Source: Oscillospiraceae bacterium
GTDB taxonomy: Bacteria > Bacillota > Clostridia > Oscillospirales > Oscillospiraceae
Assembly: GCA_017429325.1 (NCBI GenBank)
Contig: JAFRPC010000027.1
Coordinates: 1 to 54,570 of the forward strand
Length of the DNA: 54,570 bases
Direction of reading: 5' to 3'
Shown here: positions 15,475 through 54,431 of the stretch, piece after piece
How positions within the stretch are numbered: the first letter of the stretch is position 1
Layout of the letters: every line of letters begins with the position of its first letter
Program-made: the position numbers and the translations under genes
Notes under the pieces: generated by a model
Told to the model about the DNA's origin: nothing
What the model saw: the letters and a program-made list of their open reading frames with translations, nothing else
Databases searched by the model: none

Positions 15475-15790
15475 GTGCTGCGTCGCAGAAATTGTAAAAA
15501 CCTTTTCACAAAAAATTCACAAAAAATTTTCCCCGCCGTAGGGGACGGGTCCCCCGTCCCGCCGTCCCCGCCGTCCGTTCCCCGCCGTAGGGGACGGCCC
15601 CCGGACGACCCGAAAACCTCCCCTGCTTGCAGGGGAGGGGGACCGGCCTCAAGGCCGGTGGAGGGGTCGCCTCGACGACAACTTCCCCACCCATAGCGGC
15701 CAAGCTCCGGACGACCCGCATTCCCGAAACGATACGCTGGCACGGGGCGTCGAGGGCGCCGCCCCCTACGATTCCCCGCCGTCCCCCGCC

Positions 15791-16055
15791 GCCCCCGCCG
15801 TCCGTTCCAGCCGTAGGGGCGCTCATTGAGCGCCCGGCGCTCGGAACGAGCGCATTTGCCGCAGGCAAATCCGGGACGGTCCCCCAAACAGGAGACCGTC
15901 CCGGAAAAGGTTTCGCGCTTGGATCGGGTTTCGCGCTTGAATCGTTTGCTGACGCAAACAATGGATGCTCCGCATCCGCGGGCGCTTGATAAGCGCCCCT
16001 ACGGCGCAAACCGGGCGCTTCCTCCGCCTGCGGCGGATAAGAGCCGCACCCTACA
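15791..16055 (+). repeat. Multi-hairpin module, copy A (duplicated 346 bp downstream)
   Basis: This block is repeated at 16137-16401 with only about three differences. It is a chain of small hairpins bounded by heads facing outward: stem with CATTG loop, GCGCTC/GAGCGC with GGAAC loop (15837-15853), ATTTGCC/GGCAAAT (15854-15870), a larger GGGACGGT stem, GTTTGC/GCAAAC, GGATGC/GCATCC with TCC loop (15963-15977), then an inverted head unit. Related modules occur at about 27145-27375 and 31634-31790 with other arm sequences. Confidence 0.85.
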
Positions 16056-16136
16056 GCGCAAACCCAACGTTCCCCGCCGTAGGGGACGGGTCCCCCGTCC
16101 CGCCGTCCGTTCCCCGCCGTAGGGGACGGGTCCCCC

Positions 16137-16401
16137 GCCCCCGCCGTCCGTTCCAGCCGTAGGGGCGCTCATTGAGCGCCCGGCGCTCGGAACGAGCGCA
16201 TTTGCCGCAGGCAAATCCGGGACGGTCCCCCAAACAGGAGACCGTCCCGGAAAAGGCTTCGCGCTTGGATCGGGTTTCGCGCTTGAATCGTTTGCTGACG
16301 CAAACAATGGATGCTCCGCATCCGCGGGCGCTTGATAAGCGCCCCTACGGCGCAAACCGGGCGTTTCCTCCGCCTGCGGCGGATAAGAGCCGCACCCTAC
16401 G
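16137..16401 (+). repeat. Multi-hairpin module, copy B
   Basis: Near-identical direct repeat of 15791-16055. The differences seen are single transitions (for example ACAGCGC versus ACGGCGC near the right end). The recent duplication shows that these modules expand in tandem. Its right end abuts the stop codon of the NACHT gene on the opposite strand. Confidence 0.85.
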
Positions 16402-16450
16402 GCGCAGCCGCGGGCGTTTGGTCAGCGTGCCTGCGGCGTCGGTCCGGCAC

Positions 16451-18607
16451 TTACAGCTTCAACCCTGGGATTTTCATTGACCGCAATAGCTCCCGCTGTT
16501 CGTCATTCTCCATGCTTTGAATGCCAGCCTTTAGATACGCTATGCGCAGATTCGCTTCGCGCAGATCCGCTTCGCACAGATTCGCTCCGAACAGATTCGC
16601 TCCGCGCAGGTTCGCTCCGCGCAGGTCCGCTTCTCGCAGATTCGCTCTGCTCAGATCTGCTTCGCGCAGATCCGCTCCGCTCAGGTCCGCTTCGCGCAGG
16701 TCCGCTTCTCGCAGATTCGCTCTGCTCAAATCTGCTCCGCCCAGGTCCGCTTTGTACAGTCTCGCTTCGCCCAGAATCGCTTTGTGCAGTTCCGCTCCGT
16801 TTAGATCCGCTCCGCGCAGATCCGCTCTGCGCAGATACGCTCCGTACAGATACGCTCTGCTCAGATTTGCTCCGCGCAGACTAACCCCATATAGATTCGT
16901 AAATCCAAGCCAAACACTTCTAAAGTCGCCGAAGGCTCCGGGTTCATATCCCTCTCCTGCGCTCCAAAAGCCACGGAATATATCCCCAAACACCGTGGGC
17001 AGCAGCCCCGCGTCGTTGAGCTCCTTCACGTCCCGCCACCAGCGGTGCCGTTCTCCCTCCCGGCACAGGGGCTCCCGCAGAGCCCAATCGCAGCGGACCA
17101 CATTGGCAAGAATCGCGGTAATGGTCGGCAGCAGGCGCTTCTCCTTCAAGCCGTCGTAGACCCTGCCGTCGCCCAGCAGAAGCTGGAGCAGGTCGGGACA
17201 GAGCTCCTGCTCCCGCTCCCGGGTGGGCAGCCCCCTTCCGCTCCCTTCGGCTTTTGCCCGAAGATACAGAAATTCAATGACCCGAGGCTCCAGCCTCGTC
17301 CGCAGCTCGTCCCGGAAGAACATGGTCAGCTTCCGTATCTTTTCCTCCCGCGGTGCGGGGTCCTCGTAGACGCGCAGCAGCTCCCGCCAGAGCTTCTCCG
17401 CCAGGAAGAAGTCCCGGATGTTGTTGTGATAGAACTCCACGGCCCCCCGGTCCTCGCTGGACTTCAGATAGCAGCAGAGCCCCGCGTTCCGCTCCGCCAG
17501 GCTCCGGGCGGTATCTTCATCCCGGAGGCCCCTGCGGAAACTCGGGTCCTCCTCCCACAGGCGGTCGGCAATGGAAGCAAGCTCCTCGTATTGGAGATAG
17601 AGCCGCTCGTTGCCCCCGCGGTACATCCGCCAGGCCATCTCCTCCGCCAGCCTGTAGGGGGCGGCCCCATATTCGACGCCGGGGTGGGCCTCCTCGTCGT
17701 GCAGCCGCTTGGTGAGCCGCTCGGAGAACAGGCGGTGATACAGCTTCCACAGGTTCTCCCGCTCCTCCGGCCCCACCGCTCCGGCGGCCAGGAGGTAGAG
17801 GGTCAGGGGGGTGTCGCAGACGCCCTCTTCCTCACCCTTGCGGATGTAGGCCGCCAGATCCTCCGGAAGCCCACAGGCGCAGCCCTTGGGGTCCGTGTAG
17901 CGCTCAATCCACTCTGCCCGCTTTTCCTCGTCGAAATGCCGCAGTTCCAAAATGTCCGTGGAGATGTCGATGTCATGCCGGATATAGCCGGGGCGGGAGG
18001 TGACGATGAAGCGCCAGCCCGCCAGCCGCTCCGCGGTCAGTCGGTAGAGCAGATTCTCATAGTCTCCGATCCCCTCGATGATGCAGAGCTCGTCGAAGCC
18101 GTCCAGCACCAACACAGCCTTGGGGAAGCGCTCCAGCAGCCACTGCTTCCGGCGCCACTTCTCCCCCGCCGGAGCGCCTAAGGCGTCCAGCAGGGCCGGG
18201 AGCAGACCCTCCTTCGCCGTGATGCGCTCCTTGTCCAGCTCCCGGAGCCGGACCGTCACCAGGGGACGGTCCCCCAGGACCCGGCTGCCGATCTCGTCTC
18301 TTGCCCGCTTGTGCCAGCACAGGGCCTGGACCAGGCTGGTCTTGCCGCAGCCCGCGTCCCCCTCCAGGATCAGCAGCTCCTTGCTTTCGTCCTCCACGAA
18401 GGCCCCCAGCCGCGTCCAAAGCTCCGTCTCCGGCTCGTTTTCGTTCTTGAGGTTCCGATATTTCTGGAGCACGAAGAGGTTCCGCAGACAGACGGCAGGC
18501 TGTCCCTTGTGGAGAAACAGGGGCTCCTCAAAGGCGTCCGCGTAGTCCCCGTTCCAGATATGATAGTCTTTTTGATCGTATTTTTGATATGTCGCATCCC
18601 GCATCAT
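16451..18607 (-). CDS. STAND NTPase with NACHT module and pentapeptide repeats
   Basis: 718 aa. Walker A LEGDAGCGKTSL lies near residues 80-92, Walker B AVLVLDGFDEL near 163-173 with the extra acidic residues typical of NACHT, and sensor FIVTSRPGYI near 200. A winged-helix-like region ending EFYHNNIRDFFLAEKL (about 400) follows, as in bacterial NLR-like proteins. The C-terminus (about 570-692) is a pentapeptide-repeat beta-helix of A(D/N)LxxA units. Only about 75 residues precede the ATPase, so no separate effector domain is visible. Bacterial NACHT proteins include anti-phage sensors; here the pentapeptide helix would be the sensor. Single-gene unit with a GGGAGCG site before ATG 18607. Its stop TAA lies in a CTGTAAG sequence resembling the repeat head. 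Defence role is inference. Confidence 0.85.
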   Translation of the reverse strand: MMRDATYQKYDQKDYHIWNGDYADAFEEPLFLHKGQPAVCLRNLFVLQKYRNLKNENEPETELWTRLGAFVEDESKELLILEGDAGCGKTSLVQALCWHKRARDEIGSRVLGDRPLVTVRLRELDKERITAKEGLLPALLDALGAPAGEKWRRKQWLLERFPKAVLVLDGFDELCIIEGIGDYENLLYRLTAERLAGWRFIVTSRPGYIRHDIDISTDILELRHFDEEKRAEWIERYTDPKGCACGLPEDLAAYIRKGEEEGVCDTPLTLYLLAAGAVGPEERENLWKLYHRLFSERLTKRLHDEEAHPGVEYGAAPYRLAEEMAWRMYRGGNERLYLQYEELASIADRLWEEDPSFRRGLRDEDTARSLAERNAGLCCYLKSSEDRGAVEFYHNNIRDFFLAEKLWRELLRVYEDPAPREEKIRKLTMFFRDELRTRLEPRVIEFLYLRAKAEGSGRGLPTREREQELCPDLLQLLLGDGRVYDGLKEKRLLPTITAILANVVRCDWALREPLCREGERHRWWRDVKELNDAGLLPTVFGDIFRGFWSAGEGYEPGAFGDFRSVWLGFTNLYGVSLRGANLSRAYLYGAYLRRADLRGADLNGAELHKAILGEARLYKADLGGADLSRANLREADLREADLSGADLREADLSRANLREADLRGANLRGANLFGANLCEADLREANLRIAYLKAGIQSMENDEQRELLRSMKIPGLKL

Positions 18608-18660
18608 TTGGATCGCTCCCTTCCGGGTCTGTCTTTTTTTCTATCCGACGCCCCTGTTTC

Positions 18661-18735
18661 GTAGGGGCGGATGCACACATCCGCCCTCGTTCGCGGACGG
18701 AAGGCAGGGCCGATGAGGGCATCGGCCCCTACGGA
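18661..18735. repeat. Pair of head-hairpin units with heads facing outward
   Basis: Between the NACHT gene and topB: GTAGGGG followed by GGCGGATG/CATCCGCC (18661-18686), and the reverse arrangement GGCCGATG/CATCGGCC followed by CCCTACG (18708-18735). The stem words differ between the two units but each stem is perfect. Confidence 0.85.
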
Positions 18736-18741
18736 CACTGT

Positions 18742-20922: not shown

Positions 20923-20991
20923 AACTGTCTCCTATACATTTTTATAATATGGAAGGCGCCTGCCGACCGGCGGGCGCGAGCCTTCCCTCTG

Positions 20992-25354: not shown

Positions 25355-25425
25355 GTAGGGGCCGATGCCCACATCGGCCCTCCGATTCAACGCGGGGAAG
25401 GGCCGATGTGGGCATCGGCCCCTAC
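25355..25425. repeat. Head-hairpin pair forming a perfect 26-bp inverted repeat
   Basis: GTAGGGG plus the stem GGCCGATG/CATCGGCC with CCCA loop (25355-25380) is exactly mirrored at 25400-25425, with a 19-bp spacer. Heads face outward. The right unit's head starts 7 nt after the stop codon of the permease gene. Confidence 0.9.
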
Positions 25426-26951: not shown

Positions 26952-27417
26952 CCTGTAGGGACAAGCATCGCTTGTCCGCCGCGCCGCCTGTAGCGTCGGC
27001 TATCAGCCGACCAATGTCCCCCGCCGCAGGGGCGGTCAATGGCCGCGCCGTCTCCTGTAGCGCGGGCAATCTGCCCGCCGTCTCCTGTAGCGCGGGCAAT
27101 CTGCCCGCCGTCTCCCGTAGCGCGGGCAATCTGCCCGCCACTCCCCGCCGTAGGGGGCGCTCTTACCCCGCAGGGGTGAGCGTCCCGGCGCTCGGAACGA
27201 GCGCATTTGCCGCAGGCAAATCCAACCCGGTCCCGAAAACGCAGCCCGGCTGGATTGTTTGCTGACGCAAACGATTGTTTGCTCCGCAAACCGGGCGGCT
27301 CATCCGCCTGCGGTGGATAAGAGCCGCACCCTACAGCGCATCCGCGGGCGCTCAATGAGCGCCCCTACGGCGCAAACCTGCCGTTCCAGGCCCGTAGCGC
27401 GGGCAATCTGCCCGCCG
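26952..27417. repeat. Head-hairpin array with three tandem 30-bp units
   Basis: Heads at 26955, 26990, 27026 (variant GCAG), 27057, 27087, 27117 and 27150, then a multi-hairpin module (about 27145-27375) ending in an inverted head, and a final unit at 27391-27417. Stem words change: GGACAAGC, GTCGGCT, GCGGTC, then three copies of GCGGGCA/TGCCCGC repeated every 30 bp (27051-27140). No gene is present. In the module the hairpin GTTTGC/GCAAAC with TCC loop (27276-27290) replaces GGATGC/GCATCC of the 15.9-kb copy. Confidence 0.85.
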
Positions 27418-31380: not shown

Positions 31381-31861
31381 GCCTGTAGGGACAAGCATTG
31401 CTTGTCCGCCGTTCCCCGTCGTAGGGACGGCTCTCAGCCGTCCGCCGTCCCCGCCGTAGGGCGGCCAGACCCTGGCCGCCGTTTTCCCCCCGTAGGGGAC
31501 GGGTCTCCCGTCCCGCCGCCCCCGCAGTAGGGACGGCTCTCAGCCGTCCGCCGTCCCCGCCGTAGGGCGGCCAGACCCTGGCCGCCGTTTTCCCCCCGTA
31601 GGGGACGGGTCTCCCTTCCCGCCGTTCCCTGCCGTAGGGGCGGTCATTGACCGCCCGGCATTTGGAACGAATGCAATTTGCCGCAGGCAAATCCTGGACG
31701 TTTCCGAAAACGAACTGCGGCTGGATCGTTTGCTGACGCAAACGATTGTTTGCTCCGCAAACCGGGCGCTTGATAAGCGCCCCTACGGCGTTATACGGCC
31801 GTTTCCCGCCGCAGTGCGGCCAGACCCTGGCCGCCGTTCCCACCGCAGGCGGCCAGCGCCC
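31381..31861. repeat. Eight-unit head-hairpin array with 36-bp period
   Basis: GTAG heads at 31385, 31421, 31456, 31492, 31527, 31562, 31598 and 31634: steps of 36, 35, 36, 35, 35, 36, 36. Stem words in order: GGACAAGC, GGACGGCT, CGGCCAG, GGGACGGG, GGACGGCT, CGGCCAG, GGGACGGG (second arm with one mismatch), GGCGGTC. Units 2-4 are repeated as units 5-7 (106-bp tandem duplication). The last unit starts a multi-hairpin module ending in an inverted head near 31784, and a variant CGGCCAG unit follows at about 31819. No gene is present. Confidence 0.9.
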
Positions 31862-36347: not shown

Positions 36348-36770
36348 TCAGCAATTATACCTCGCTTGTCTGCTTTCAAATTCTTTCAACCACACAAGCC
36401 ACATTTCGTCCAGATTCTTTTCTGCTCTGGACTTACTGTATTTCAGCGTTTCCTCGGTCAGAGCCTTTGGCATTTTAGCAAGCCGGTCGAGAATAATCTC
36501 AGACCCAGGCCAATTCAAATCCTGCAGCCACTCAAAAAGTGAATAAAGATATGGCGTCAATTCCTCGTCGGATCTGTCCGCAATGACTTTTGCACATGGC
36601 TCCCACACAGACTTGCTTTTCCCGTTTGGAAGAATCGGCTGCAAGAACGGAAATAAGTATTTCACTCCTTTTGCAAGCTCAAGTCCTTGCTGTTCACGAC
36701 GGTTATACTCTTCAGGAGTATAGCTACTGTCCCATGTAAATAAATCGTATATTTCATCAATGTTCGTCAC
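36348..36770 (-). CDS. DUF5071-like protein
   Basis: 140 aa. The segment PYLYSLFEWLQDLNWPGSEI followed by LDRLAKMPKA is the signature of DUF5071, a small helical domain. Members sometimes lie near toxin-immunity clusters, but I see no toxin here. A weak AGAGGTGAGAGATTAG sequence precedes ATG 36770. Low-GC patch gene with no clear operon partner. Confidence 0.7.
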   Translation of the reverse strand: MTNIDEIYDLFTWDSSYTPEEYNRREQQGLELAKGVKYLFPFLQPILPNGKSKSVWEPCAKVIADRSDEELTPYLYSLFEWLQDLNWPGSEIILDRLAKMPKALTEETLKYSKSRAEKNLDEMWLVWLKEFESRQARYNC

Positions 36771-38240: not shown

Positions 38241-39878
38241 TTATTTCTGCCTTGACATCAATACTACTGTCTCCACGTGGCAGGTCCGGGGGAAGAGGTC
38301 GAAGGCCTCGGCGGTCTGGAGGGCGTAGCCGCGCCCGGTCAGGAGCTTCACGTCCCGGGCCAGGGTGGCGGGGTCGCAGGAGACGTAGACGATGCGCACC
38401 GGGGCCATTCGCACCATGGCGTCGATGACCTCCGGGGCCAGGCCCTTCCGGGGCGGGTCTACGAGAATGACATCCGGTATTGGAAATTGGAAGGGGTTTT
38501 CGTCGTAGGGGCCGGCCCCTGGACGGCCCGGGTCCCGTTCCGATCCGTCGGCACGGGGCGTCGAGGCGCCGCCCCCTACGGCCTGAACAGCGTCCGCGCA
38601 GAAGAATTCCACGTTGGCGACGCCGTTTCTCGCGGCGTTCTGTTTGGCGTCCTCGATGGCCTCGGGGACTACCTCGACGCCCACGGCCCGCCCGGCGTAC
38701 CGGGACAGGGCCAGGGTGATGGTGCCGGTGCCGCAGTAGAGGTCCAGCACGGTCTCGGTGCCGTGGAGGCCTGCCAGCTCCACGGCCTTCTCATAGAGCC
38801 GCTGGGCCTGGTCGTGGTTCACCTGATAGAAGGAGCGGGGCGAGAGCCGGAAGCGGAAGCCGCAGAGCTCGTCCTCGATCCAGTCCCGGCCCCAGAGGGT
38901 CCGCAGCTCGTCTCCCAGGACCACGTTGGTGTTTTTCCGGTTCACCGAGAGGACCACCGAGGCCAGGCCGGGGATCTCCCGCTCCAGGGCGTGCAGCAGG
39001 CGGTTTTCCCGGGGCAGGCTGTCCCCGTTGACCACGAGGCAGACCATGAGCTCCCCGGAGACGGCCCCCCGCCGCAGGTAGATGTGGCGCAGCAGGCCCT
39101 GGCCCGTGGCCTCGTCATAGACCGAAACGCGGTCCTCCTCCGCCCAGCGCATCACCACGTCCCGGACCCGGTCGAAAACCTCCGGGAGGATCGCGCAGCG
39201 CCGCACCGGAACCAGCTCGTGGGTCCGGTTTTTGTAGAAGCCCGCCGCGGGCCTGCCGTTTTTCATCGCCACGGGGTACTGGGCCTTGTTGCGGTAGCCG
39301 CCGATCTCCGCCGCGCCGGTGATGGGGAGGGCAAACCCTTTGGGCTCTGCCTCAGCGTGAACATTTTGGATCGTGTCGTAGGGGCCGGCCCCTGGATGGC
39401 CCGTTTCCCCTGCCGGTTCGGCGGTACGGGGCGTCGAGGCGCCGCCCCCTGCGGGACAAGTGCCCGCCGCGCCGGTGATGGAGAGAGCGCGATCGTCGGA
39501 CGTCCCCTCATCCGCCCCCTGCGGGGGCACCTTCCCCCCAAGGGGAAGGCTTTGTCCGCCCAGGCGGGTCAGGGCGTCGTACACCTTTTGCGCCTTGAAG
39601 CGCAGCTCCTCCTCGTAGTCCATGTGGTGGAGCTGGCAGCCGCCGCAGAGCTTCGCCTGGGGACAGGCCCGGGAGATCCGGTGGGGGGAGCGCTGCACGA
39701 TTTCTTCGATTTTCCCGTGGGCACTGTTCCGGCTGACGTGGGTGACGCGGACCACGCAGAGCTCGCCCCGGATGGCGTTTGGCACGAACACCGCGCAGCC
39801 GTCCATCCGGCAGACGCCCATTCCCTCCGAGGAATAGCCTGTGATCTCGACCTTCTCCGTCTGTCCAACCTTCAGCAT
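38241..39878 (-). CDS. rlmD: 23S rRNA (uracil-C5)-methyltransferase RlmD/RumA-like with in-frame repeat inserts
   Basis: 545 aa from ATG 39878 (GGAGGAAGGAACC upstream); relatives are about 450 aa. A TRAM domain (QTEKVEITGYSSEGMGVCRM) is followed by the Fe-S cysteines ACPQAKLCGGCQLHHMDY, the SAM fold VLDLYCGTGTITLALS, and the catalytic cysteine in VYVSCDPATLARDVKLL after LVDPPRKGL. The extra length is explained by repeat DNA read in frame: a proline/glycine-rich block between ALTRLGG and EIGGYRNKAQYPV, and a second block between FFCADAVQAV and ENPFQFPIPDV. Both contain GGGASTPR and PGAGPYD. All catalytic motifs survive, so the enzyme may still work. The gene end, HVETVVLMSR, is echoed at four places to the left. 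Confidence 0.88.
   Translation of the reverse strand: MLKVGQTEKVEITGYSSEGMGVCRMDGCAVFVPNAIRGELCVVRVTHVSRNSAHGKIEEIVQRSPHRISRACPQAKLCGGCQLHHMDYEEELRFKAQKVYDALTRLGGQSLPLGGKVPPQGADEGTSDDRALSITGAAGTCPAGGGASTPRTAEPAGETGHPGAGPYDTIQNVHAEAEPKGFALPITGAAEIGGYRNKAQYPVAMKNGRPAAGFYKNRTHELVPVRRCAILPEVFDRVRDVVMRWAEEDRVSVYDEATGQGLLRHIYLRRGAVSGELMVCLVVNGDSLPRENRLLHALEREIPGLASVVLSVNRKNTNVVLGDELRTLWGRDWIEDELCGFRFRLSPRSFYQVNHDQAQRLYEKAVELAGLHGTETVLDLYCGTGTITLALSRYAGRAVGVEVVPEAIEDAKQNAARNGVANVEFFCADAVQAVGGGASTPRADGSERDPGRPGAGPYDENPFQFPIPDVILVDPPRKGLAPEVIDAMVRMAPVRIVYVSCDPATLARDVKLLTGRGYALQTAEAFDLFPRTCHVETVVLMSRQK
38504..38580. repeat. Palindromic element inserted in frame in rlmD (copy B)
   Basis: Starts with CGTAGGGGCCGG and ends with CGCCCCCTACG type sequence in inverse orientation, i.e. 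two family-1 heads facing outward. On the rlmD strand it is read as GGGASTPR, a variable middle, and PGAGPYD (about 25 aa) between the SAM motif region and the catalytic LVDPPRKG. Confidence 0.85.
39308..39488. repeat. Palindromic element A in rlmD with flanking 25-bp direct repeats
   Basis: The element (39377-39454) matches copy B closely (outer ends GTAGGGGCCGGCCCCTGGA and GGGGCGTCGAGGCGCC) but with an unrelated middle. It is flanked by direct repeats 39308-39332 and 39464-39488 (23 of 25 identical, offset 156 bp = 52 codons), encoding LPITGAA and LSITGAA. A further hairpin class (CCCCCTGCGGGGG and CCTTCCCC/GGGGAAGG, about 39515-39555) is also read through in frame. Confidence 0.8.
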
Positions 39879-39938: not shown

Positions 39939-39969
39939 CGTAGGGGCCGACGCCCTCGACGGCCCGCCG
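39939..39969 (+). repeat. Head-hairpin unit upstream of rlmD
   Basis: CGTAGGGGCCGACGCC with a GGCCG/CGGCC stem, between the rlmD start and the parS site. The rlmD frame remains open through it, but the ribosome site at 39878 places it outside the gene. Confidence 0.7.
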
Positions 39970-41338: not shown

Positions 41339-42286
41339 ATGGTTCCTGACGCTCGTTCCAACGAAAGCTTTGCCCTGTCTAATGAAAGCTTTGCCCTGTC
41401 CTATCAAAACTGCCAGCTCTGTCCCCGGCGCTGCGGCGTGGACCGGACCGCCGGGGCGCTTGGCTTCTGCGGGATGCCCGCCCATCCCGTGGCCGCCCGG
41501 GCGGCGGCCCACTACTGGGAGGAGCCGGTGATCTCGGGGGAGTACGGCTCGGGGGCGGTCTTCTTCTCCGGCTGCACCCTGCGCTGCCGCTTCTGCCAGA
41601 ACTACGAGATCTCCACGGAAAAGCACGGTTATCCCCTCAGCAGCGCCCGACTCCGGGAGATCTTCGAGGGGCTGATCGCCGCGGGCTGCCACAACCTCAA
41701 CCTGGTGACGGCCACCCACTTCCTGCCGGATATTCTTCCGGTCTTAGAGCCGAAGCTGCCGGTCCCCGTGGTCTTCAACTGCGGCGGCTATGAGCGGGTG
41801 GAGACCCTGCGGGCTCTGGAGGGCAAGGTGGACGTATGGCTGCCGGACCTGAAGTATTCCGACGACCGCCTGGCCCGGCAGCTCTCCGCCGCCCCGGACT
41901 ACATGGAGACCGCCAAGGCCGCCATTTTGGAGATGTACCGGCAGACCGGCCCCTGCGTGGTGGAAAAGGGCCTGCTGAAGCGGGGTGTGCTGATCCGCCA
42001 CCTCATCCTTCCGGGGCAGATCGACAATTCCGTGGGGGTGCTGGAGTGGATCGCCGACGCCTTCCCGAAGGGGGCGGTGCTGGTGTCCCTCATGAGCCAG
42101 TACGTGCCCATGGGCCCCGCCGCCCAGGTCCCGCCCTTCGACCGGCGCATCACCCGGGAGGAATACGACACCGTGCTCTCCTGGCTGTATTTCTTCGGCC
42201 TGGAGGCGGGCTTCCTCCAGGGCCCCGAGGCCGCCAGCCTCGAATACGTCCCGGAATTCAACGGCACGGGCATCCTCCCGCCGTAG
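41339..42286 (+). CDS. PflX-like radical SAM protein (truncated/altered C-terminus)
   Basis: 315 aa; GGAGG lies 6 nt before the ATG. The N-terminal NCQLCPRRCGVDR and GFCGMPAHP plus the cluster motif FSGCTLRCRFCQNYEIS (about 75-91) match the PflX/pyruvate-formate-lyase-activase-like group (COG1313 type), which reduces SAM to a 5'-deoxyadenosyl radical; the target is unknown. The gene ends GTGILPP with its TAG in a repeat head, whereas a second copy of the gene end at 42450-42513 reads GTGILPDL-TAA. An inserted array has replaced the last codons. The N-terminus has a small 21-bp duplication (NESFALS twice). Confidence 0.88.
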   Translation: MVPDARSNESFALSNESFALSYQNCQLCPRRCGVDRTAGALGFCGMPAHPVAARAAAHYWEEPVISGEYGSGAVFFSGCTLRCRFCQNYEISTEKHGYPLSSARLREIFEGLIAAGCHNLNLVTATHFLPDILPVLEPKLPVPVVFNCGGYERVETLRALEGKVDVWLPDLKYSDDRLARQLSAAPDYMETAKAAILEMYRQTGPCVVEKGLLKRGVLIRHLILPGQIDNSVGVLEWIADAFPKGAVLVSLMSQYVPMGPAAQVPPFDRRITREEYDTVLSWLYFFGLEAGFLQGPEAASLEYVPEFNGTGILPP

Positions 42287-42495
42287 GGGCGCTCATTGAG
42301 CGCCCGCCGTTCCCTGCCGTAGGGGCGGTCATTGGCCGCCCGCCGTTCCCCGCCCGGATGAGGCAACAGGCAACGGGCAACAGGCAACAGGCCCGCCCGT
42401 AGGGACGGCTCTCAGCCGTCCGCTGTTCCCCGCCGTAGGGGCGGTCATTGGCCGCCAGCCTCGAATACGTCCCGGAATTCAACGGCACGGGCATC
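42229..42495 (+). repeat. Repeat array flanked by 46-bp direct repeats of the host gene end
   Basis: 42229-42274 and 42450-42495 are identical over 46 bp (offset 221). Between them lie head-hairpin units at 42283, 42319, 42399 and 42435 and a heptamer block GGCAACA/GGCAACG (about 42361-42390). Without the insert the radical-SAM stop TAA would directly abut the GGAGG ribosome site of the next gene, as in an operon. The structure looks like insertion with target duplication, or tandem duplication followed by expansion. Confidence 0.85.
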
Positions 42496-42520: not shown

Positions 42521-43390
42521 ATGCTTTATAATACCATCCTCTCCCGGACGCCCATCTCCGGCGGGTGGTCCGCGGACCGGAAATACCGGGCTGAGGCCAC
42601 CGACGGCTCGGTCTGGTTCCTGCGCATCGGCGCGCCGTCCCGGGAGGCCCGGCTGCGGGAGGTCTTCGGCTTCCAGCAACAGGCTGCGGACCTGGGCCTG
42701 CCCATCGCCCGCCCCCTGGAATGCGGCACCTGCGCCGAGGGCTTCTACACCTTAGAGACCTGGATCGACGGGATCGACGCCCGGGACGCCCTCCCCGCCC
42801 GGACCGAGGCCCAGCACTATACGGACGGCCTCCTGGCGGGGCGGGTCCTGCGCCGCCTTCATACCATCCCCGCCCCGGCGGAGCTGCCGGACTGGGAGAC
42901 CCGCTTCAATCAGAATATCGAGCGCCGGGTGGCGGAATACCTGGCCTGCCCGCTGAAATACGAGCGCGACGATCCCCTTCTGTCCGGGATCTCCGGGAAC
43001 CGGGAGCTGCTGAAGGACCGGCCCCAGAGCTTCCAGCACCACGATTACCACGTGGGAAACTTCATGTACGAGCACGGAGCCCTGCGCATCATCGACTTTG
43101 ACCGCTTCGCCTTCGGGGACCCCTGGCAGGAATTTCAGAAGCTTCCCTGGTGCGTCCAGGCCTCTCCCGCCCTGGCCCGGGGCATGGTGGACGGCTATTT
43201 CGACGGCCCGCCCCCGGAGGAATTCTGGCGGCTGCTGGCCCTCTATCTCTGCTGCCTGCTTCTGGGCAACCTGCCCTGGGCCATCCCCTACGGCGAAGAG
43301 GAGGTCCAGGTCATGCGCCGCCAGGCCGAACAGGTCCTGTCCTGGTACGGCGACGGCATCGTGCCAGCGTGGTATCGTCCCCGCCCGTAG
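42521..43390 (+). CDS. Aminoglycoside phosphotransferase (APH)-family kinase
   Basis: 289 aa, perfect AAGGAGG 7 nt before the ATG. A kinase fold with an N-lobe (KYRAEATDGSVWFLRIG), catalytic loop FQHHDYHVGNFMYEHG (H-x-D-x-x-x-x-N, about 167-182) and metal motif LRIIDFDRFAFGDP. Clostridial members more often phosphorylate small metabolites or sugars than antibiotics, so resistance should not be assumed. The stop codon TAG lies inside the head of a repeat unit (CCCGTAGGGA). Probably once an operon with the PflX-like gene. Confidence 0.85.
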   Translation: MLYNTILSRTPISGGWSADRKYRAEATDGSVWFLRIGAPSREARLREVFGFQQQAADLGLPIARPLECGTCAEGFYTLETWIDGIDARDALPARTEAQHYTDGLLAGRVLRRLHTIPAPAELPDWETRFNQNIERRVAEYLACPLKYERDDPLLSGISGNRELLKDRPQSFQHHDYHVGNFMYEHGALRIIDFDRFAFGDPWQEFQKLPWCVQASPALARGMVDGYFDGPPPEEFWRLLALYLCCLLLGNLPWAIPYGEEEVQVMRRQAEQVLSWYGDGIVPAWYRPRP

Positions 43391-43835
43391 GGACGCTCAT
43401 TGAGCGCCTGTCGTACCACGCCCGAATGAGGCAACAGGCAACAGGCAACAGGCAACAGGCCCGCCCGTAGGGACGGCTCTCAGCCGTCCGCGGTTCCCCG
43501 CCCGGTCGAGTGACCAGTGACCAGTCACCAGTCACCAGGGGACGGGGGAGGCGGATTCTTCGCTCTAAGGCAACAGGCAACGGGCAACAGGCCCGCCCGT
43601 AGGGACGGCTCTCAGCCGTCCGCGGTTCCCCGCCGTAGGGGCCGGTCCCTGGACGGCCCGCCGTACCCGCCGTAGGGGCGCTCATTGAGCGCCCGCCGTA
43701 CCCCGCCCGGAAACAGTTGAAAGTTGAAAGTTGAAAATTAAAAGTTTCGGAGTTTTTCAATTTGCAAATTGAAAAACACATTCATTCTCAATTCTTACTT
43801 CTCAATTCTCAATTCCACCGGGGGACGGGGGACGC
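43387..43835. repeat. Mixed array of head-hairpins and heptamer repeats
   Basis: Starts at the APH stop codon. Contains head units (about 43387, 43469, 43600, 43636, 43672), heptamer blocks GGCAACA (about 43431-43460 and 43568-43592), GTGACCA/GTCACCA (about 43511-43538) and GTTGAAA (about 43714-43742). It also holds a perfect 26-bp AT palindrome at 43752-43777 (halves GTTTTTCAATTTG and CAAATTGAAAAAC) followed by inverted heptamers CTCAATT. No gene except the possible remnant listed next. Confidence 0.85.
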
Positions 43836-44680: not shown

Positions 44681-45970
44681 TTATTTCTTGGTAATGACCT
44701 CCAGCCCGCCCAGGTACTTCCTGAGCACCTCGGGGACGACGACGGAGCCGTCGGAGCGCTGGTTCTGCTCCACCATGGCGGGGAAGATGCGGGAGGTGGC
44801 CAGGCCGGAGCCGTTGAGGGTATGGACGAACTCGATCTTGCCCGTGGCCTCCCGGCGGAAGCGGATATTGCCCCGGCGGGCCTGATAATCCCGGGCGTTG
44901 GACACAGAGCTGACCTCCTTGTAGCCGTTCATGGAGGGGATCTGGATCTCGATGTCGTAGGTCCGGGCCATGGAGGCGGAGCAGTCTCCCGCCGCCAGCT
45001 TCACGGTGCGGAAGTGGAAGCCCAGGGCCTTGACCAGGTTCTCGGCCTTCTTCACCAGCTCCTCAAAGGCCTCGTCGGACTTCTCGGGCAGGGTGTACTG
45101 GAACATTTCGATCTTGTTGAACTGGTGGCCGCGCACCATGCCCCGCTCGTCGGCCCGGTGAGAGCCGGCCTCCCGGCGGAAGCAGGGAGTGTAGGCGAAC
45201 AGCTTATGGGGCAGATCAGCTTCGTTCAGGATCTCCCCCCGGTGGAAGGAGGCCAGGGCTGTCTCCGCCGTAGGGAGCATGAAATGCATCCGCTCGTCGG
45301 TGGGATTGGCGATCTTATAGACCTCGTCGGCGAACTTGGGGAACTGGCCCGCAGTCTCGCCGCACTGGTACTCTAACATGTGGGGCAGGATGACCATCTC
45401 ATAGCCGTCCGCCAGGTGGCAGTCCATAAAGTAGTTCAGCAGAGCCCATTCCAGCCTTGCGCCCAGGCCCGTGTAGATCCAGAAGCCGGTGCCCGCCAGT
45501 TTGGTGCCGCGCTCATAGTCGATGAGGCCCAGGTCCGTGCAGAGGTCCACGTGGTGCTTGGGCTCGAAGTCGAACTGGTGGGGCTCGCCGTAGTAGCGCA
45601 GGGGCTCGTTGTTCTCCTTGCCGCCGGGCTTCAGGTCCGGGTCCGGGAGGTTGGGAAGGCTCAGCATCCAGGTCCGGTACTCGGCCTCCACCTCGGTGAG
45701 GCGCTTGTCGTTGGCGGCGATGTCGTTCTTGAGCTCCGCCATCTGCTTGAAGATGGGGGCCACGTCCTGGCCCTGCTTTTTCAGCACGGGGATCTGCTTG
45801 GAGACCTTGTTCTGCTCAGCCTTTTTGGCCTCGGTGGAGGCGATGAGCTCCCGGCGCTCCTTGTCCAGCTCCAGAATGCGGTCCACGGCGGCGTCGCAGT
45901 CCACTTCCTTGGCCCGCAGCAGCCGCTTGACCTCCTCGGGATTTTCCTTGATTCTTCTGATATCAAGCAT
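44681..45970 (-). CDS. serS: Seryl-tRNA synthetase
   Basis: 429 aa class II synthetase charging tRNA-Ser. The N-terminal long coiled-coil arm (about 25-105; DKERRELIASTEAKKAEQNK) grips the tRNA. Motif 2 FRREAGSHRADERGMVRGHQ and motif 3 LNGSGLATSRIFPAMVEQNQ are intact. ATG 45970 is chosen over TTG 45976 because GAGG lies 8 nt before it. No T-box leader is visible; the upstream gap is short and holds one hairpin repeat. Confidence 0.97.
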   Translation of the reverse strand: MLDIRRIKENPEEVKRLLRAKEVDCDAAVDRILELDKERRELIASTEAKKAEQNKVSKQIPVLKKQGQDVAPIFKQMAELKNDIAANDKRLTEVEAEYRTWMLSLPNLPDPDLKPGGKENNEPLRYYGEPHQFDFEPKHHVDLCTDLGLIDYERGTKLAGTGFWIYTGLGARLEWALLNYFMDCHLADGYEMVILPHMLEYQCGETAGQFPKFADEVYKIANPTDERMHFMLPTAETALASFHRGEILNEADLPHKLFAYTPCFRREAGSHRADERGMVRGHQFNKIEMFQYTLPEKSDEAFEELVKKAENLVKALGFHFRTVKLAAGDCSASMARTYDIEIQIPSMNGYKEVSSVSNARDYQARRGNIRFRREATGKIEFVHTLNGSGLATSRIFPAMVEQNQRSDGSVVVPEVLRKYLGGLEVITKK

Positions 45971-45993
45971 AATCAATACCTCTTATTCCTTGT

Positions 45994-46019
45994 TGTAGCG
46001 GCGCACAGTGTGCGCCACG
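45994..46019 (+). repeat. Single head-hairpin unit between serS and its neighbour
   Basis: GTAGCG followed by GGCGCACA/TGTGCGCC with a 1-nt centre. It ends 2-3 bp from the stop codon of the coiled-coil gene. The same stem word recurs near 49.42 and 49.55 kb. Confidence 0.8.
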
Positions 46020-48485: not shown

Positions 48486-48618
48486 ACTGTAAAGTAAAAA
48501 GGAAAAAGTAAAAAGTAAGAAGTAGGTGGAAAAATCAGCTTTTTCCTCTTACTTCTTACTTCTTACTTCTTACTTTATCCTGGCGGGGTACGGCGGGCAG
48601 ATTGCCCGCGCTACAGGC
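48486..48618. repeat. Heptamer-armed palindrome and inverted head-hairpin
   Basis: GTAAAAA/GTAAGAA heptamers (about 48490-48525), a GGAAAAA/TTTTTCC core with 5-nt centre, then CTTACTT heptamers in reverse (about 48546-48574). This has the same architecture as the GTTGAAA elements with a different word. A GCGGGCA/TGCCCGC unit with its head on the minus strand follows at 48592-48618. Confidence 0.8.
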
Positions 48619-48635
48619 GGGGTCTTACCTCTTAC

Positions 48636-49286
48636 CTAATCGTATTCCCTTACGACGCCCCGGACGACGCCGAGGAGGACCGCCTCGCGGCCATCAATGG
48701 GAGAGAAGGCCTCGTTCTCAGGCAGGAGCCACACCTGGCCGCCCCGCCGGGAAAAGCGTTTGACAGTGGCCTCGTCGCCGAGCAGGGCCACCACGATCTC
48801 GCCGGGCTCCGCCGTGGGCTGGGGCCGAACCACCACCTTGTCGCCGGGGAGGATGCCTGCATTCTTCATGCTCTCGCCCTTAACCCGCAGGGCGAACCAG
48901 CCCTGGCCGCCCTCCCAGGGCAGCCAGCCGTCGATGTTCTCCACAGCCAAAATCGGCTGCCCGGCAGCCACGGTGCCCACAATGGGAACCAGCGGCCCCG
49001 TCAGCCCCTTGTGAATAGAGACCACTTCTTCAACAGTTCCAGACAGCTCTCTTGCCGTCTCCTGTTTTTTTGCTTCGCTGCCCGGCAGAGATATGGCGCG
49101 TTTCTTTCCCTTTTCCATGATAATCCGTCCCGCCGCCTCCAGGGCCCGCAGATGATAGTGGACCGTCGCTGTAGAGCTGAGCCCCAAGCCCTCGCAGATC
49201 TCCCGCACAGCCGGACCATAACCATGTAATGAAATATATTCTTCTATAAATGTAAATACGTTCTCTTTTTGCGTCCCTCTCTTCAT
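48636..49286 (-). CDS. lexA: LexA SOS repressor
   Basis: About 216 aa. The winged helix GPAVREICEGLGLSSTATVH binds operators; self-cleavage site Ala-Gly in GTVAAGQPILA; catalytic Ser in RVKGESMKNAG and Lys in GDEATVKRFSR. ATG 49286 (MKRGTQKENV) is chosen; an in-frame ATG at 49298 directly abuts AAAGG and is too close. Its own promoter is overlapped by a LexA box, so it is autoregulated. Location between the par locus and dnaA is notable but not unique. The TAG stop is followed at once by GTAAGAG/GTAAGAC heptamers. Confidence 0.95.
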   Translation of the reverse strand: MKRGTQKENVFTFIEEYISLHGYGPAVREICEGLGLSSTATVHYHLRALEAAGRIIMEKGKKRAISLPGSEAKKQETARELSGTVEEVVSIHKGLTGPLVPIVGTVAAGQPILAVENIDGWLPWEGGQGWFALRVKGESMKNAGILPGDKVVVRPQPTAEPGEIVVALLGDEATVKRFSRRGGQVWLLPENEAFSPIDGREAVLLGVVRGVVREYD

Positions 49287-49310
49287 TTTCAGCACCATCC
49301 TTTGCTTGTT

Positions 49311-49349
49311 ATTCTACCATATCGCGCTGAAAATTGCAAACATTTGTTC
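49311..49349 (-). promoter_or_regulatory. lexA promoter with overlapping LexA box
   Basis: Minus-strand TTGCAA (49339-49334), 17 bp, TAGAAT (49316-49311). GAACAAATGTTT at 49349-49338 fits the Gram-positive SOS box GAAC-N4-GTTY and overlaps the -35, giving simple autorepression. Confidence 0.8.
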
Positions 49350-49394
49350 ATATTCCTCACACTGTATTTCCGTTTTTACCTTCTCGAACGCCGG

Positions 49395-49848
49395 AGCGAG
49401 GGGGACGGCGGGACCCGTGGCGCACACTGTGCGCCGCTGCCGGGCGATTACTTCTTACTTCTTCCCTCTTACTTCTTACCTCGTCCGTGCGGGGAACCGC
49501 GGGCGGCCAATGACCGCCCCTACGGCGAGGGACGGCGGGACCCGTGGCGTACACTGTGCGCCGCTGCCGGGCGATTACTTCTTACTCCTTCCCTCTTACT
49601 TCTTACCTCGTCCGTGCGGGGAACTGCGGGCGGCCAATGACCGCCCCTACAGGCGGGTCTGTTGCCTGTTGCCCGTTGCCTGTTGCCTCGTCCGTGCGGG
49701 GAACGGCGGGCGCTCAATGAGCGCCCCTACGGCGGGGCAGGGACCGGCGGGCAGATTGCCCGCGCTACAGGCGGGGAACGGCGGACGGCTGAGAGCCGTC
49801 CCTACGGGCGGGTCTGTTGCCTGTTGCCCGTTGCCTGTTGCCTAGTAA
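49395..49848 (-). repeat. Head-hairpin/heptamer array between lexA and dnaA
   Basis: All head units face the minus strand (CTAC at about 49519, 49647, 49727, 49763, 49800). Stem words include GGCGGTC-type, GGCGCTC, GCGGGCA and GGACGGCT, plus GCGCACA units near 49420 and 49545. They alternate with CTTACTT heptamers (about 49450-49485, 49575-49610) and GTTGCCT heptamers (about 49660-49688, 49813-49842). A block of about 126 bp is directly duplicated. It ends about 30 bp before the dnaA promoter. No gene. Confidence 0.85.
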
Positions 49849-49878
49849 AATCAACCATACAATATAATAAAGAAATGC

Positions 49879-49907
49879 TTGTAAAACAGAGAAAAATGTG
49901 GTATAAT
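49879..49907 (+). promoter_or_regulatory. dnaA promoter
   Basis: TTGTAA (49879-49884), 17-bp spacer, TATAAT (49902-49907); start codon 47 nt downstream. Confidence 0.8.
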
Positions 49908-49953
49908 ATAGGGGTATGAAACTGTGCTTTTTTTCACACGTCGGAGGTGTGTT

Positions 49954-51270: not shown

Positions 51271-51670
51271 TTTTCAAGGTGCTAGGGGCTAGTTGCCAGG
51301 GGCTAGGGTCATAATTTCCCTAGCAACTAGCAACTAACAACCAGCCCCTGAAATATCCACAAGGTGCTAGGGGCTAGTTGTCAGGGGCTGGGGTCATTAT
51401 TTCCCTAGCAACTAGCAACTAACAACCAGCCCCTGAAATATCCACAGGGCATGGGGAAAGTGGAAAACCATTCGTGGAAATCTCTCTTCTCCGATTTTTT
51501 TCTCCGGCCCAATGTGGAAAACCTTTTTACTTTCCCCATGCCCTGTGGATTCAAAAGCCCGCTGTTTCAACGAATTTTAAGGTTTTCCACCATCCACAGC
51601 CCCTACGGTAACGACTTCTAATATATTCTCTCTTTCTCTCTTACGAGAGAGAAGGGAAAGGAGATTTTTT
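51271..51670. other. oriC: Putative oriC (dnaA-dnaN intergenic region)
   Basis: DnaA-box-like nonamers: TTTTCCACA on the minus strand at 51521-51513 (fits TTWTNCACA), ATATCCACA at 51353-51361 and 51438-51446, TTTTCCACC at 51583-51591, and a TGTGGATT near 51544. A T-rich stretch near 51491-51502 and pyrimidine run TTCTCTCTTTCTCTCTT near 51625 could help unwinding. The left half is taken up by a duplicated heptamer palindrome. Additional boxes may exist upstream of dnaA; the promoter-proximal region showed none I trust. Confidence 0.7.
51279..51446 (+). repeat. Tandem heptamer palindromes in oriC, each ending in a DnaA-box-like site
   Basis: Two copies (about 51278-51360 and 51361-51446) with only a few differences. 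Each has GGGGCTAGTTG-type heptamers, a short AT centre, CTAGCAA, CTAGCAA, CTAACAA heptamers in reverse sense and then CCAGCCCC, so the whole copy can fold back. Each ends GAAATATCCACA. Confidence 0.85.
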
Positions 51671-52780: not shown

Positions 52781-52785
52781 AAAAT

Positions 52786-52981
52786 GTAGCGCGGGCAATC
52801 TGCCCGCCATCCCCCGCCTGTAGGGGCGCTCATTGAGCGCCCGCCATCCCCCGCCCGTAGGGGCGCTCATTGAGCGCCCGCCGTCCCCCGCCCGGGAACA
52901 GTTGAAAGTTGAAAGTGAAAAGTTGAAAGTTGTGGAGTTTTTCAAATCGCAATTTGAAAAACACATTCAATTATCAATTCC
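52786..52981 (+). repeat. Head-hairpins and heptamer palindrome after dnaN (copy 3)
   Basis: Head units at 52786 (GCGGGCA stem), 52820 and 52857 (both GGCGCTC stems), then GTTGAAA heptamers and the third AT core at 52937-52962 (one mismatch, halves GTTTTTCAAATCG and CAATTTGAAAAAC), then CAATTAT/CAATTCC. No coding potential. Confidence 0.85.
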
Positions 52982-53014
52982 GCCCGCGATTCCCTGTATC
53001 ATAGAGGTACTGCC

Positions 53015-53275
53015 ATGAAAGTCAGAGTCAGACGCATCGACCCCAACGAGCAGAAAATCCCCATTACCACGGAATACATCAAATTAGAGAGCTTCCTGAA
53101 GCTTGCCAACGTCGTGGAATCCGGCGGTATGGCGAAGAACTTCATTCTCAACGAGGAAGTCACCGTCAACGGCGAGGTCTGCACCATGCGGGGCAAAAAG
53201 CTCCGCCCCGGCGACCGGGTGGGCTTTGACGGAAACATGTACCTTGTTACGCAGGGAAATGAAAATCTAACATGA
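53015..53275 (+). CDS. yaaA: S4-domain RNA-binding protein of the YaaA type
   Basis: 86 aa. EYIKLESFLKLANVVESGGM then AKNFILNEEVTVNGEVCTMR and KKLRPGDRVGFDG form an S4 fold, as in the small protein between dnaN and recF of many Firmicutes, which binds structured RNA and may act in ribosome assembly. It overlaps recF by 4 nt (ATGA). Confidence 0.9.
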   Translation: MKVRVRRIDPNEQKIPITTEYIKLESFLKLANVVESGGMAKNFILNEEVTVNGEVCTMRGKKLRPGDRVGFDGNMYLVTQGNENLT

Positions 53276-54372
53276 TCATCAAAAACCTCTCCATCCAAGG
53301 CTTCCGCAATTATGAATCCTTCTACTGCGATTTCGACCCCGGCGTCAACCTGATCGTGGGGGAGAACGCCCAGGGAAAGACGAATCTGCTGGAGGCCATC
53401 TGCTACCTCAGCCGCGGCGCGGCCTTCCGCACCCGGAAGGAGGCCGAGCTGATCCGCTTCGGGGCGGAGTTCGCGGAGCTCAGCGCCGTGGTGGAGTCCT
53501 TCGGGCGGGAGCAGACCCTGCGGACCGTGATGTTCGCGGGCCGGAGGCCCCGGCAGCTCTGGCTTTCCGGCGTCAAAAAGGCCTCCCGGGAGGACCTGGA
53601 CGGGGTGCTGAACACAGTGCTCTTCTGCCCCGAGGACCTGCTGGTCCTCAAAAAGGGCGCCGCCGAGCGGCGGAAGCTCCTGGACGACGCCCTCTGCCAG
53701 CTCCGGCCCAGATATGCAAAGGCGTTGGAGGAGTACCGCCGCCTGCTGGCCCAGAAATCCGCCGCCCTGAGGGAGCGGGTGGATCGGCCCGAGATGCTGG
53801 AGCTGCTGCCCGAGTACAACGAGCGCATGGCCCAGACCGGCGCCATCATCATCACCACCCGGGCCAAGTACCTGCGGCAGCTGGCGGAGCGGGCAGCCTG
53901 CCATCACCTGGCCTTTTCGGGAGGCCGGGAGGAGCTCTGCCTGTGCTATCAGACCGTCTCCACTGTGACGGAACCCACCGCACCGGCCTTAGAGGTCTAT
54001 GAGCAGCTCAAGGAGCACCAGTCCTCCCACTGCCGGGCCGAGATAGAGTCCATGCAGTGCCTCTCCGGGCCCCACAAGGACGACTTTGAGGCGACGCTGA
54101 ACGGCATCTCTATGAAGGCCTTCGGTTCCCAGGGCCAGACCCGCACCGCGGCCATCAGCCTCAAGCTGGCGGAACGGGACCTCTTCGAGGCGGACACCGG
54201 CGAGCAGCCGGTGCTGCTGCTGGACGACGTGCTCTCCGAGCTGGACCCGGGCCGCCGGGACTTCGTGCTCAACGGCATCCGCACCGGCCAGGTCTTCGTG
54301 ACCTGCTGCGAGGCCGACGCCGTCACCCAGCTCGGCAAAACCTTCCACATCGCACAGGGAAAAATCGTGTAG
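53272..54372 (+). CDS. recF: DNA repair/replication ATPase RecF
   Basis: 366 aa SMC-like ATPase loading RecA at gaps. Walker A NLIVGENAQGKTNLLEAICY (about 27-46), signature region GSQGQTRTAAISLKLAE, Walker B VLLLDDVLSELDPGRRD. Coupled to the S4 gene. Its stop codon TAG is the TAG of a repeat head (GTGTAGGGACGG), so the repeat begins within the last codons (IVstop). Confidence 0.96.
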   Translation: MIIKNLSIQGFRNYESFYCDFDPGVNLIVGENAQGKTNLLEAICYLSRGAAFRTRKEAELIRFGAEFAELSAVVESFGREQTLRTVMFAGRRPRQLWLSGVKKASREDLDGVLNTVLFCPEDLLVLKKGAAERRKLLDDALCQLRPRYAKALEEYRRLLAQKSAALRERVDRPEMLELLPEYNERMAQTGAIIITTRAKYLRQLAERAACHHLAFSGGREELCLCYQTVSTVTEPTAPALEVYEQLKEHQSSHCRAEIESMQCLSGPHKDDFEATLNGISMKAFGSQGQTRTAAISLKLAERDLFEADTGEQPVLLLDDVLSELDPGRRDFVLNGIRTGQVFVTCCEADAVTQLGKTFHIAQGKIV

Positions 54373-54431
54373 GGACGGCTCTCAGCCGTCCGCCGCCCCA
54401 GCGTAGGGCGGCCAGACCCCTGGCCGCCGTT
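54369..54431 (+). repeat. Two head-hairpin units after recF
   Basis: Heads at 54369 and 54403 (34 bp apart), stems GGACGGCT/AGCCGTCC and CGGCCAG/CTGGCCG with a slightly longer loop (ACCC). The second stem is followed by TTTCCTG and then the group II intron-like sequence. Confidence 0.85.

Follow-up and report, generated by a model that had tools for sequence, protein, structure and literature searches.

GTAG-tagged hairpins with many stem words in an Oscillospiraceae-like genome: REP families very probably tied to separate RAYT lineages

Among described systems, the closest to the hairpins considered here are the GTAG-tagged repetitive extragenic palindromes (REPs) of Stenotrophomonas, SM1-SM13, which carry GTAG or a variant of it directly before 8-9 paired bases (PMC3686654; PMC3733652). 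Nunvar et al. (2013) reported 22 and 13 REP classes that start with GTAG or a close variant, differ in their stems and are named after their REP-associated tyrosine transposases (RAYTs) (PMC3686654), while Di Nocera et al. (2013) sorted GTAG-tagged REPs into 24 families by stem and loop (PMC3733652). Several such classes share a Stenotrophomonas genome, each tied to its own RAYT and forming inverted doublets, and their abundance depends mostly, with exceptions, on the cognate RAYT (PMC3686654). We describe hairpins that are alike in all these respects in a stretch of 54,570 nucleotides (hereafter, the window), contig C37 of a 2.03 Mb Oscillospiraceae-like metagenome-assembled genome (MAG) that is 73% complete. 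An earlier note on this DNA had presented its hairpins, with one head and many self-complementary stems, as a design not met before. This design had already been published for GTAG REPs, including those of Pseudomonas and Stenotrophomonas (PMC3686654; PMC3733652), and at the level of the superfamily the hairpins belong to a known REP class, so the claim of novelty falls. The elements of the window are new members of the GTAG REP kind and differ from those described in degree, in the number of families and in mixed chains. Each stem class is very probably the substrate family of one RAYT (HuH/Y1) lineage, with copies of the stem word on either side of its gene.

Other described systems show further likenesses and differences. 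The REP of the S. maltophilia REP group 3 REPtron also has 23 nt (GTAG, a perfect 8-bp stem and a 3-nt loop), and its activity was shown in vitro (PMC8266576), whereas the present elements are described from their sequence. The stated maximum in Stenotrophomonas is four RAYTs (PMC3686654), compared to up to seven RAYT-like matches per genome here, in a host that belongs to Oscillospiraceae-like Clostridia. The likeness to the GTAG REPs of Pseudomonas is less close (PMC3686654). REPINs are alike in having inverted REP pairs at recurrent spans (PMC3116915); here, however, several classes coexist and some pairs carry two different words. Our literature search returned no paper linking Oscillospir* with repetitive extragenic palindromes, and we met in it no description of these hairpins of rumen and gut Clostridia.

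At a loose threshold, 53 hairpins started by GTAG were listed in the window. Four of them, at 11995, 36727, 36804 and 48522, were set aside as chance, the one at 36727 being also among the matches at the stricter threshold. The remaining 49 elements include 40 with perfect stems and nine in which one position is mismatched or a G·T pair (at 15769, 16119, 31598, 38505, 38579, 39940, 42319, 49523 and 49650). The family itself, as well as all 11 stem words named in the earlier note, is therefore real, while its 'perfect' stems with arms changing 'every time' hold for the 40 and not for the nine. The head is constant as claimed, but it consists of GTAG only, since the following G's are stem bases, and the loops have 3 or 4 nt rather than 1-4 nt.

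Palindromes arising by chance in GC-rich DNA could be suspected in this window, where the GC content of 2-kb windows ranges from 46 to 66%. We found 41 matches at the stricter threshold, whereas 20 composition-matched (Markov-1) controls averaged 0.2 and never exceeded 2. With the same threshold, GTAG had the top hairpin count among all 256 tetramers; in rate it was exceeded only by TAGG, its own shift. In a looser first count, GCGG had slightly more hairpins than GTAG, at a far lower rate (45 hairpins per 1171 sites vs 43 per 353). The word CCGTAGGGG occurs 26 times in the window against 0.58 expected, and patterns read backwards had zero matches in every genome searched. GTAG is thus not a mere by-product of GC-rich sequence, and chance, refuted by these controls and by the shuffled and slid controls given below, has practically no probability left.

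An element consists of an unpaired GTAG directly before the stem and most often of 8 bp, a 3-nt loop and 8 bp; in the window, the stems have 7-9 bp and the loops 3-4 nt. The flank after the hairpin, about GCCGTTCCCCGCC, is also common to the elements inside chains. When eight representatives were folded as single-stranded DNA, the minimum-energy structure was the hairpin with GTAG unpaired. For covariation, we picked from the window 14 distinct units of 23 nt, leaving out classes E, I and J, which have other lengths. Paired cells made up 95.5%, compared to 60.1% after shuffling and 41-48% after sliding; two-sided changes filled 35 cells vs 9.3 in shuffled sets. The covariation score was 0.885 vs 0.179 (standard deviation 0.046) shuffled and 0.136-0.200 slid, the structure having an advantage over the slid control because it was derived from the same 14 units. 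The number of pairs with any two-sided change, six, was unremarkable (4.9 in shuffled sets, six being reached in 130 of 500). The earlier observation that pairing is kept while the stem sequence changes is borne out by these scores.

The window holds about 11 stem classes. Class A (GGGCGCTC) has eight elements and its variant A' (GGGCGCTT) three; D (GGACGGCT) and G (C-GCGGGCA) have seven each, F (GGGACGGG) five, and B (GGGCGGTC), I (GGGCCGATG/GGGCGGATG) and J (GGGGCGGCG, GGGCCGGCC, GGGCCGACG) four each. Class E (GGCGGCCAG) has three elements, C (GGACAAGC) two, and H (C-GTCGGCT) and K (C-GGCGCAC) one each. In G, H and K an unpaired C stands right after GTAG. The loops in the window are class-specific as well: ATT/ATC in A, B, C, G and H, CTC in D, ACC/ACCC in E, TCC/TCT in F, CCCA/CCCT/CACA in I, CCT/CCCT in J and AGT in K.

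Thus, as in the GTAG REP superfamily, we see an unpaired GTAG before the stem and a palindrome within the 5-13 bp range with a short loop and complementary changes. The copy number is high, and singles, inverted dimers and clusters occur in one genome. The window is unusually dense in matches, with 47 in its 54.6 kb, whereas other parts of this genome, about 286 kb in total, had 53. When named genomes were scanned for the 23-mer of class A (a pattern with two degenerate loop letters), at least 79 stretches matched. Among the matches listed, 72 were in MAGs of Oscillospiraceae, Ruminococcaceae or uncultured Clostridia, five in Coriobacteriaceae, one in Acidobacteria and one in Methyloversatilis; the listed stretches held no RAYT gene. 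The matches in the Acidobacteria and Methyloversatilis MAGs (L093, L117) may reflect convergence, transfer or contamination.

Among the 118 genomes searched (host included), 37 had RAYT-like matches. The host has three RAYT-like genes, C31, C56 and C33, found by protein search; the Pfam Y1_Tnp model alone undercounts them, with a single match (the C31 protein). Against NCBIfam REP_Tyr_transpos (NF047646), the E-values were 4e-19 for C31, 1.7e-17 for C56 and 5e-18 for C33, and the C31 product of 180 aa scored 68.9 bits against a cut-off of 80. In a search made with C31 and C56 only, the solved TnpAREP structure 4er8 was matched with E-values of 9e-7 and 3e-8, respectively. Class A elements lie to the left and right of the C31 gene, and class G elements likewise enclose the C56 gene. 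As in REPtrons, then, a HuH/Y1 gene related to TnpAREP is bracketed by REPs of one class. A Y1/REP-type transposase, which the earlier note had named among possible mobilisers, is with these same-genome genes the best candidate.

The link between stem word and transposase was followed in 72 RAYT genes from 68 loci, a part of the matches found, of which 70 entered the comparison of left and right words. Three loci were left out as duplicates (L121, L125 and L142, of L001, L157 and L181; L142 only in later counts), and L163 and L180 stand outside the left/right and intragenic counts because the HuH pattern missed NHFH. For the tree and the Mantel test, the stems of L163, L180, L001, L124 and L166 were set by hand. 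Hairpins were present on both sides of the HuH site in 58 of the 70 genes; eight of the remaining 12 had them on one side only and four had no GTAG hairpin. The nearest left and right words agreed (at least 7 of 8 letters) in 50 of the 58, while 2000 permutations of the right-hand words averaged 5.1 and never gave more than 13, although the rows are not all independent (L132/L189 and L183/L184 are each from one genome, and L132 has a stop).

On a 71-gene RAYT tree, the words cluster by clade. The clade words include GGGACGGG; GGGGCGGC; GGGCCGAT; GGACAAGC/GGACGAGC together with GGACGGCT/GGACGGCA; CGCGGGC(A/T); TGCCGGCA/TGCCGATT; and CGGCGCAC. The stem difference grows with protein distance (Mantel rho 0.243 for n=68 and 0.276 for the 45 genes of the genus), a correlation reached in 0 of 2000 permutations in either case. 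A cognate RAYT was found for nine of the 11 window classes: for A and G in the host and for B, C, D, F, I, J and K in congeners. Since most stem words are tied to a transposase lineage of their own, the many stems represent several coexisting REP families and no new kind of element.

By analogy with the REPtrons of E. coli and Stenotrophomonas, a RAYT would bind the folded single-stranded REP, with GTAG serving as its recognition and guide motif. It would cut beside the hairpin and join the hairpin elsewhere in the genome, alone or as an inverted pair. If the flanking stems change in step with RAYT genes that duplicate and diverge, pairing would be conserved while the words change. Mobilisation by the enzyme from a single-stranded substrate is thus likely on this analogy. 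The stem itself may be the specificity signal or may be a mere marker of the source copy. The match of RAYT and stem could come from recognition of the stem or from copying in cis of the REPs beside the gene, as suggested by Nunvar et al. (PMC3686654).

One promiscuous RAYT might instead move all stem classes, with the words drifting neutrally under a constraint on pairing alone. Eleven classes stand in the window against three RAYT-like genes in the host assembly, certain classes reach high numbers in genomes without a detected cognate RAYT, and the TnpAREP of E. coli still accepts REPs whose upper stems were exchanged and can cut some foreign ones in vitro (PMC8266576). A single mobiliser is nonetheless unlikely, given that the left and right words agree gene by gene and that words common to several species track RAYT clades. 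Neutral drift would be expected to leave a cloud of singletons, while the genome sample has few words in many copies. Copy number, too, is class-specific, as follows.

Genome-wide counts were made for five classes of the 11 (A, C, D, F and I) in 23 congeneric genomes. The host has 53 exact copies of A, 44 of C, 87 of D, 22 of F and 64 of I. Copies tend to be more numerous where the cognate RAYT was found (permutation p 1e-4; p 8e-4 with class labels permuted among RAYT-bearing genomes). With a cognate RAYT, class A had 53 copies in G000, the top of the 23 genomes; class D had 235 in G003 and 180 in G006, the top two; class C had 89 in G018 (the top) and 30 in G006; class F had 19 in G005 and 17 in G020, the third and fourth; and class I had 33 in G019, 28 in G012 and 23 in G006.

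Several observations weigh against tying each class to its own RAYT lineage. The host assembly provides a cognate RAYT for just two of the 11 classes, A and G, while seven have theirs only in congeners; classes E and H are without a convincing cognate among the RAYT genes examined, an E-like word standing near L155 on one side only. Since the MAG is 73% complete, a missing RAYT is weak evidence; cross-mobilisation or past loss of a RAYT is possible. No GTAG hairpin lies near four of the RAYT genes, namely the host's C33, which has other palindromes, and three more. All eight proteins scanned score below the curated NCBIfam cut-off (52-72 vs 80 bits), and C31 falls just below that of Pfam. Both Mantel correlations are of modest size, and where a gene has intragenic hairpins, the residues encoded by them enter the protein distance. 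Some copy numbers do not fit either. Class A is rich without an assigned cognate RAYT in G004 (32) and G016 (26), class C reaches 63 in G004 in the same situation and only 6 in G001 with its cognate, and class F is highest in G019 (37) without one. For class I, G004 (67), G000 (64), G005 (56) and G016 (37), all without an assigned cognate, exceed the three RAYT-bearing genomes (23-33). Because the class of a RAYT was assigned from its flanking words, the counts also take in the elements beside the RAYT gene itself. Among the genomes rich in a class without an assigned cognate, G000, G005 and G016 do carry RAYTs of the sister clade that have no GTAG hairpins (L152, L160 and L172). Finally, in published mutagenesis of two group 3 systems (including PMC8266576), most stem bases mattered less than the loop and GTAG, and the address may therefore be something other than the stem.

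Another explanation holds that the hairpins are kept chiefly for signalling in RNA or DNA (at transcript ends, in mRNA stabilisation, or as sites of gyrase or other proteins) and that their mobility is secondary; such roles are argued for in PMC3733652. Several hairpins do adjoin genes. For example, the sites at 18661-18732, 42319-42421 and 45995 fall between genes where Pfam domains fix the neighbours; a crude ORF (open reading frame) pick placed 30 of the 53 matches inside ORFs, spurious long ORFs being abundant in this DNA. The G·T pairs in stems are also what would be expected if some elements were transcribed. Yet an Rfam scan of the window gave no match at the gathering score, and a signal role leaves unexplained the one word per RAYT, the recurrent inverted pairs and the copy number that tracks RAYT. 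We consider it improbable as the main function.

The inverted pairs have GTAG on the outside and recur at class-typical spans, most often about 71, 77, 133, 143 or 190 nt; as with REPINs, two inverted REPs at a similar distance are dispersed. Spans were 70-77 nt for class I (in several genomes), 190 nt for A/A' (in the window), 137-143 nt for C and 75-77 nt for J, with one of 136. Pairs of A and B, which come largely from a single MAG, mostly span 132-133 nt, but two span 100 nt. Some inverted pairs carry two words, one per arm, and so do some RAYT flanks (L126 and L157 have CGGCGAGC on the left and CGGCGGCC on the right); such two-word pairs increase the apparent diversity of words.

One less ordinary feature is the mixed-family chain, which is a difference of degree from known systems. 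Head-to-tail neighbours within 45 nt had different words in 21 of 33 cases in the host by exact comparison. By a looser rule (fewer than 6 of 8 letters in common), 19 of 33 differed, compared to 14 of 135 in other loci, a set biased to RAYT sites and class A. An example is the head-to-tail chain C-D-E-F-D-E-F-B at 31385-31656, with spacers of 11-13 nt, followed by A' at 31786 on the minus strand (31385..31786 in all). Spacers in host chains are C-rich, e.g., GCCGTTCCCCGCC, and their similarity across families has preferential insertion into C-rich sequence as one possibility. Chains with similar spacers and changing stems resemble a written cassette, as if a templating or diversity-generating mechanism wrote new stem words into a fixed frame. 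However, the words in chains are largely the same few as elsewhere in the genome and at RAYT genes, and the D-E-F block is simply duplicated, so that tandem duplication accounts for part of the mixed chain. Nothing observed requires a templating mechanism, although no search aimed at one, such as for a reverse transcriptase, was made; we take it to be very improbable.

The other less ordinary feature is that, outside the genus of the window, the hairpins of RAYT genes are placed differently. Both lie inside the reading frame in 18 of 23 such genes, and the downstream one lies inside in the other five. In the window's genus both were inside in 0 of 47 genes and one in seven. Four of these seven look real (L156b and L165b with the upstream hairpin, L159 and L179 with the downstream one); L124, L130 and L157 were dismissed as a chance hairpin, an N-terminal extension and a frame read past a stop, respectively. 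The intragenic hairpins flank the HuH motif, one around codons 29-51 and the other around codons 85-110, and are inverted in 18 of 18 genes, the first GTAG being in codon frame in 17. Both copies have the same word in 17 of 18 (at least 7 of 8 letters; 16 exactly), compared to a permuted mean of 2.1 and a maximum of 9, in a set that includes the same-genome pairs named above. The arms form 8.1 pairs vs 4.2 with random synonymous codons. The encoded peptides differ (VGADTIRP, VGAINDRP, VGKAALCLP, VGTPLPGCP), so protein conservation is not the cause of the intragenic pairing.

REP insertions in such RAYT genes are partly known. Quentin et al. (2018) reported REPs inserted in the tnpAREP genes of subclass 2.4, generally between HuH and Y and with the frame kept (PMC6006769). 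The present genes are alike in having REP hairpins inside a transposase gene whose frame is kept, but here, outside the window's genus, an inverted pair of the same word brackets HuH; the accessible part of PMC6006769 gave us no description of such a matched pair. Some intragenic words are dispersed as well. GGAAGGCAG has 30 copies in G023 and none in nine other genomes, with six of the 30 in genes by position, and GGGCGGAT has nine copies in G112, one in G023 and none in eight others, with four of the nine in genes by position. In sampled stretches of four genomes with intragenic pairs, dispersed copies were present in G023, and the G112, G034 and G099 samples had none of the RAYT's own word. 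As judged by eye, the interior of a dispersed pair in G023 is unlike the gene interior, which makes it doubtful that the intragenic segment moves out as one complete copy. Outside the genus, the RAYT coding sequence, with its same-word inverted hairpins around HuH, might double as its own substrate and source copy, new REP families arising by a change of the intragenic pair followed by dispersal; to this proposal we would give slightly less than an even chance. A change of stem word would then have to alter four arms and the peptide together, locking enzyme and address in one sequence. If functional, these pairs would make a transposase gene that is also its own substrate.

Hairpins of rumen and gut Clostridia are placed by this analysis in a known class, with 'one head, many stems' becoming a community of REP families, most of which have an identifiable transposase lineage. 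Within one genus, dozens of enzyme-substrate pairs that differ in stem and loop are available from nature. The question of whether a RAYT reads the stem, the loop or only the proximity to its own gene is thereby made testable.

The elements of the window are distributed as follows. The first REP cluster (15538..16348) has class F at 15538, 16079 and 16119 and class A at 15813 and 16159 on the plus strand, with A' at 16002 and 16348 and J at 15769 on the minus strand; its A and A' elements form two inverted pairs of 190 nt. Two inverted pairs of class I follow. The REPIN-like one at 18661..18732 (72 nt; GGGCGGATG on the plus strand, GGGCCGATG on the minus strand) is situated between a pentapeptide/NACHT ORF (start at 18607) and a topoisomerase ORF (stop at 18742), while that at 25355..25425 (71 nt) has GGGCCGATG on both sides. 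The cluster at 26955..27416 consists of C at 26955, H at 26990 and G at 27057, 27087, 27117 and 27394, all on the plus strand, and A at 27368 on the minus strand.

Class J forms an inverted pair of 75 nt at 38505..38579 (GGGCCGGCC on the plus and GGGGCGGCG on the minus strand, with one mismatch each), and a single J-like element with one mismatch (GGGCCGACG..CGACGGCCC) lies at 39940..39965 on the plus strand. The plus-strand elements A at 42283, B at 42319 and D at 42399 (42283..42421) begin within the final bases of a radical-SAM ORF (41339-42286) and end ahead of a phosphotransferase-family ORF (start at 42521). Also on the plus strand are D at 43467, D at 43599 and A at 43672 (43467..43694). 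The single K element (C-GGCGCAC agt GTGCGCC; 45995..46017, plus strand) is just upstream of a seryl-tRNA synthetase ORF (44681-45976, minus strand). The minus strand carries G at 48614, B at 49523 and 49650, A at 49730, G at 49768 and D at 49805 within 48592..49805, these positions being those of the GTAG end. Two plus-strand chains come last: G at 52786 with A at 52820 and 52857 (52786..52879), and D at 54369 with E at 54403 (54369..54428).

We also observed a second palindrome family, without GTAG, at 15855-15875, 16201-16221 and 31668-31760 (GCATTTGCCGCAGGCAAATCC, GTTTGCTCCGCAAAC, GGATGCTCCGCATCC). Identical or similar words flank the host's own RAYT C33 (L152) and L172, so these palindromes may form a further REP-like class, one that has a tag other than GTAG. 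In L130, the RAYT frame (about 1474-2416, minus strand) is extended upstream by some ten in-frame tandem REPs, which gives a repeated AVGAVIGRPPQP peptide.

Other repeats and frames of the window deserve mention. Simple tandem stretches, AGGCAACAGGCAACAGG and AGTAAGAAGTAAGAAG, directly adjoin REPs at 42368-42394, 43436-43594 and 49448-49846. The 15-nt tandem repeats at 16473-16937 lie where the minus-strand ORF 16451-18607, which encodes a NACHT-domain protein, has its pentapeptide repeats. The ORF at 42521-43390 on the plus strand, between two REP clusters, belongs to PF01636, a broad family of phosphotransferases. On opposite strands, two open frames of more than 3400 aa each overlap, at 4840-15252 (plus) and 4993-15240 (minus), and probably only one of them is a gene.

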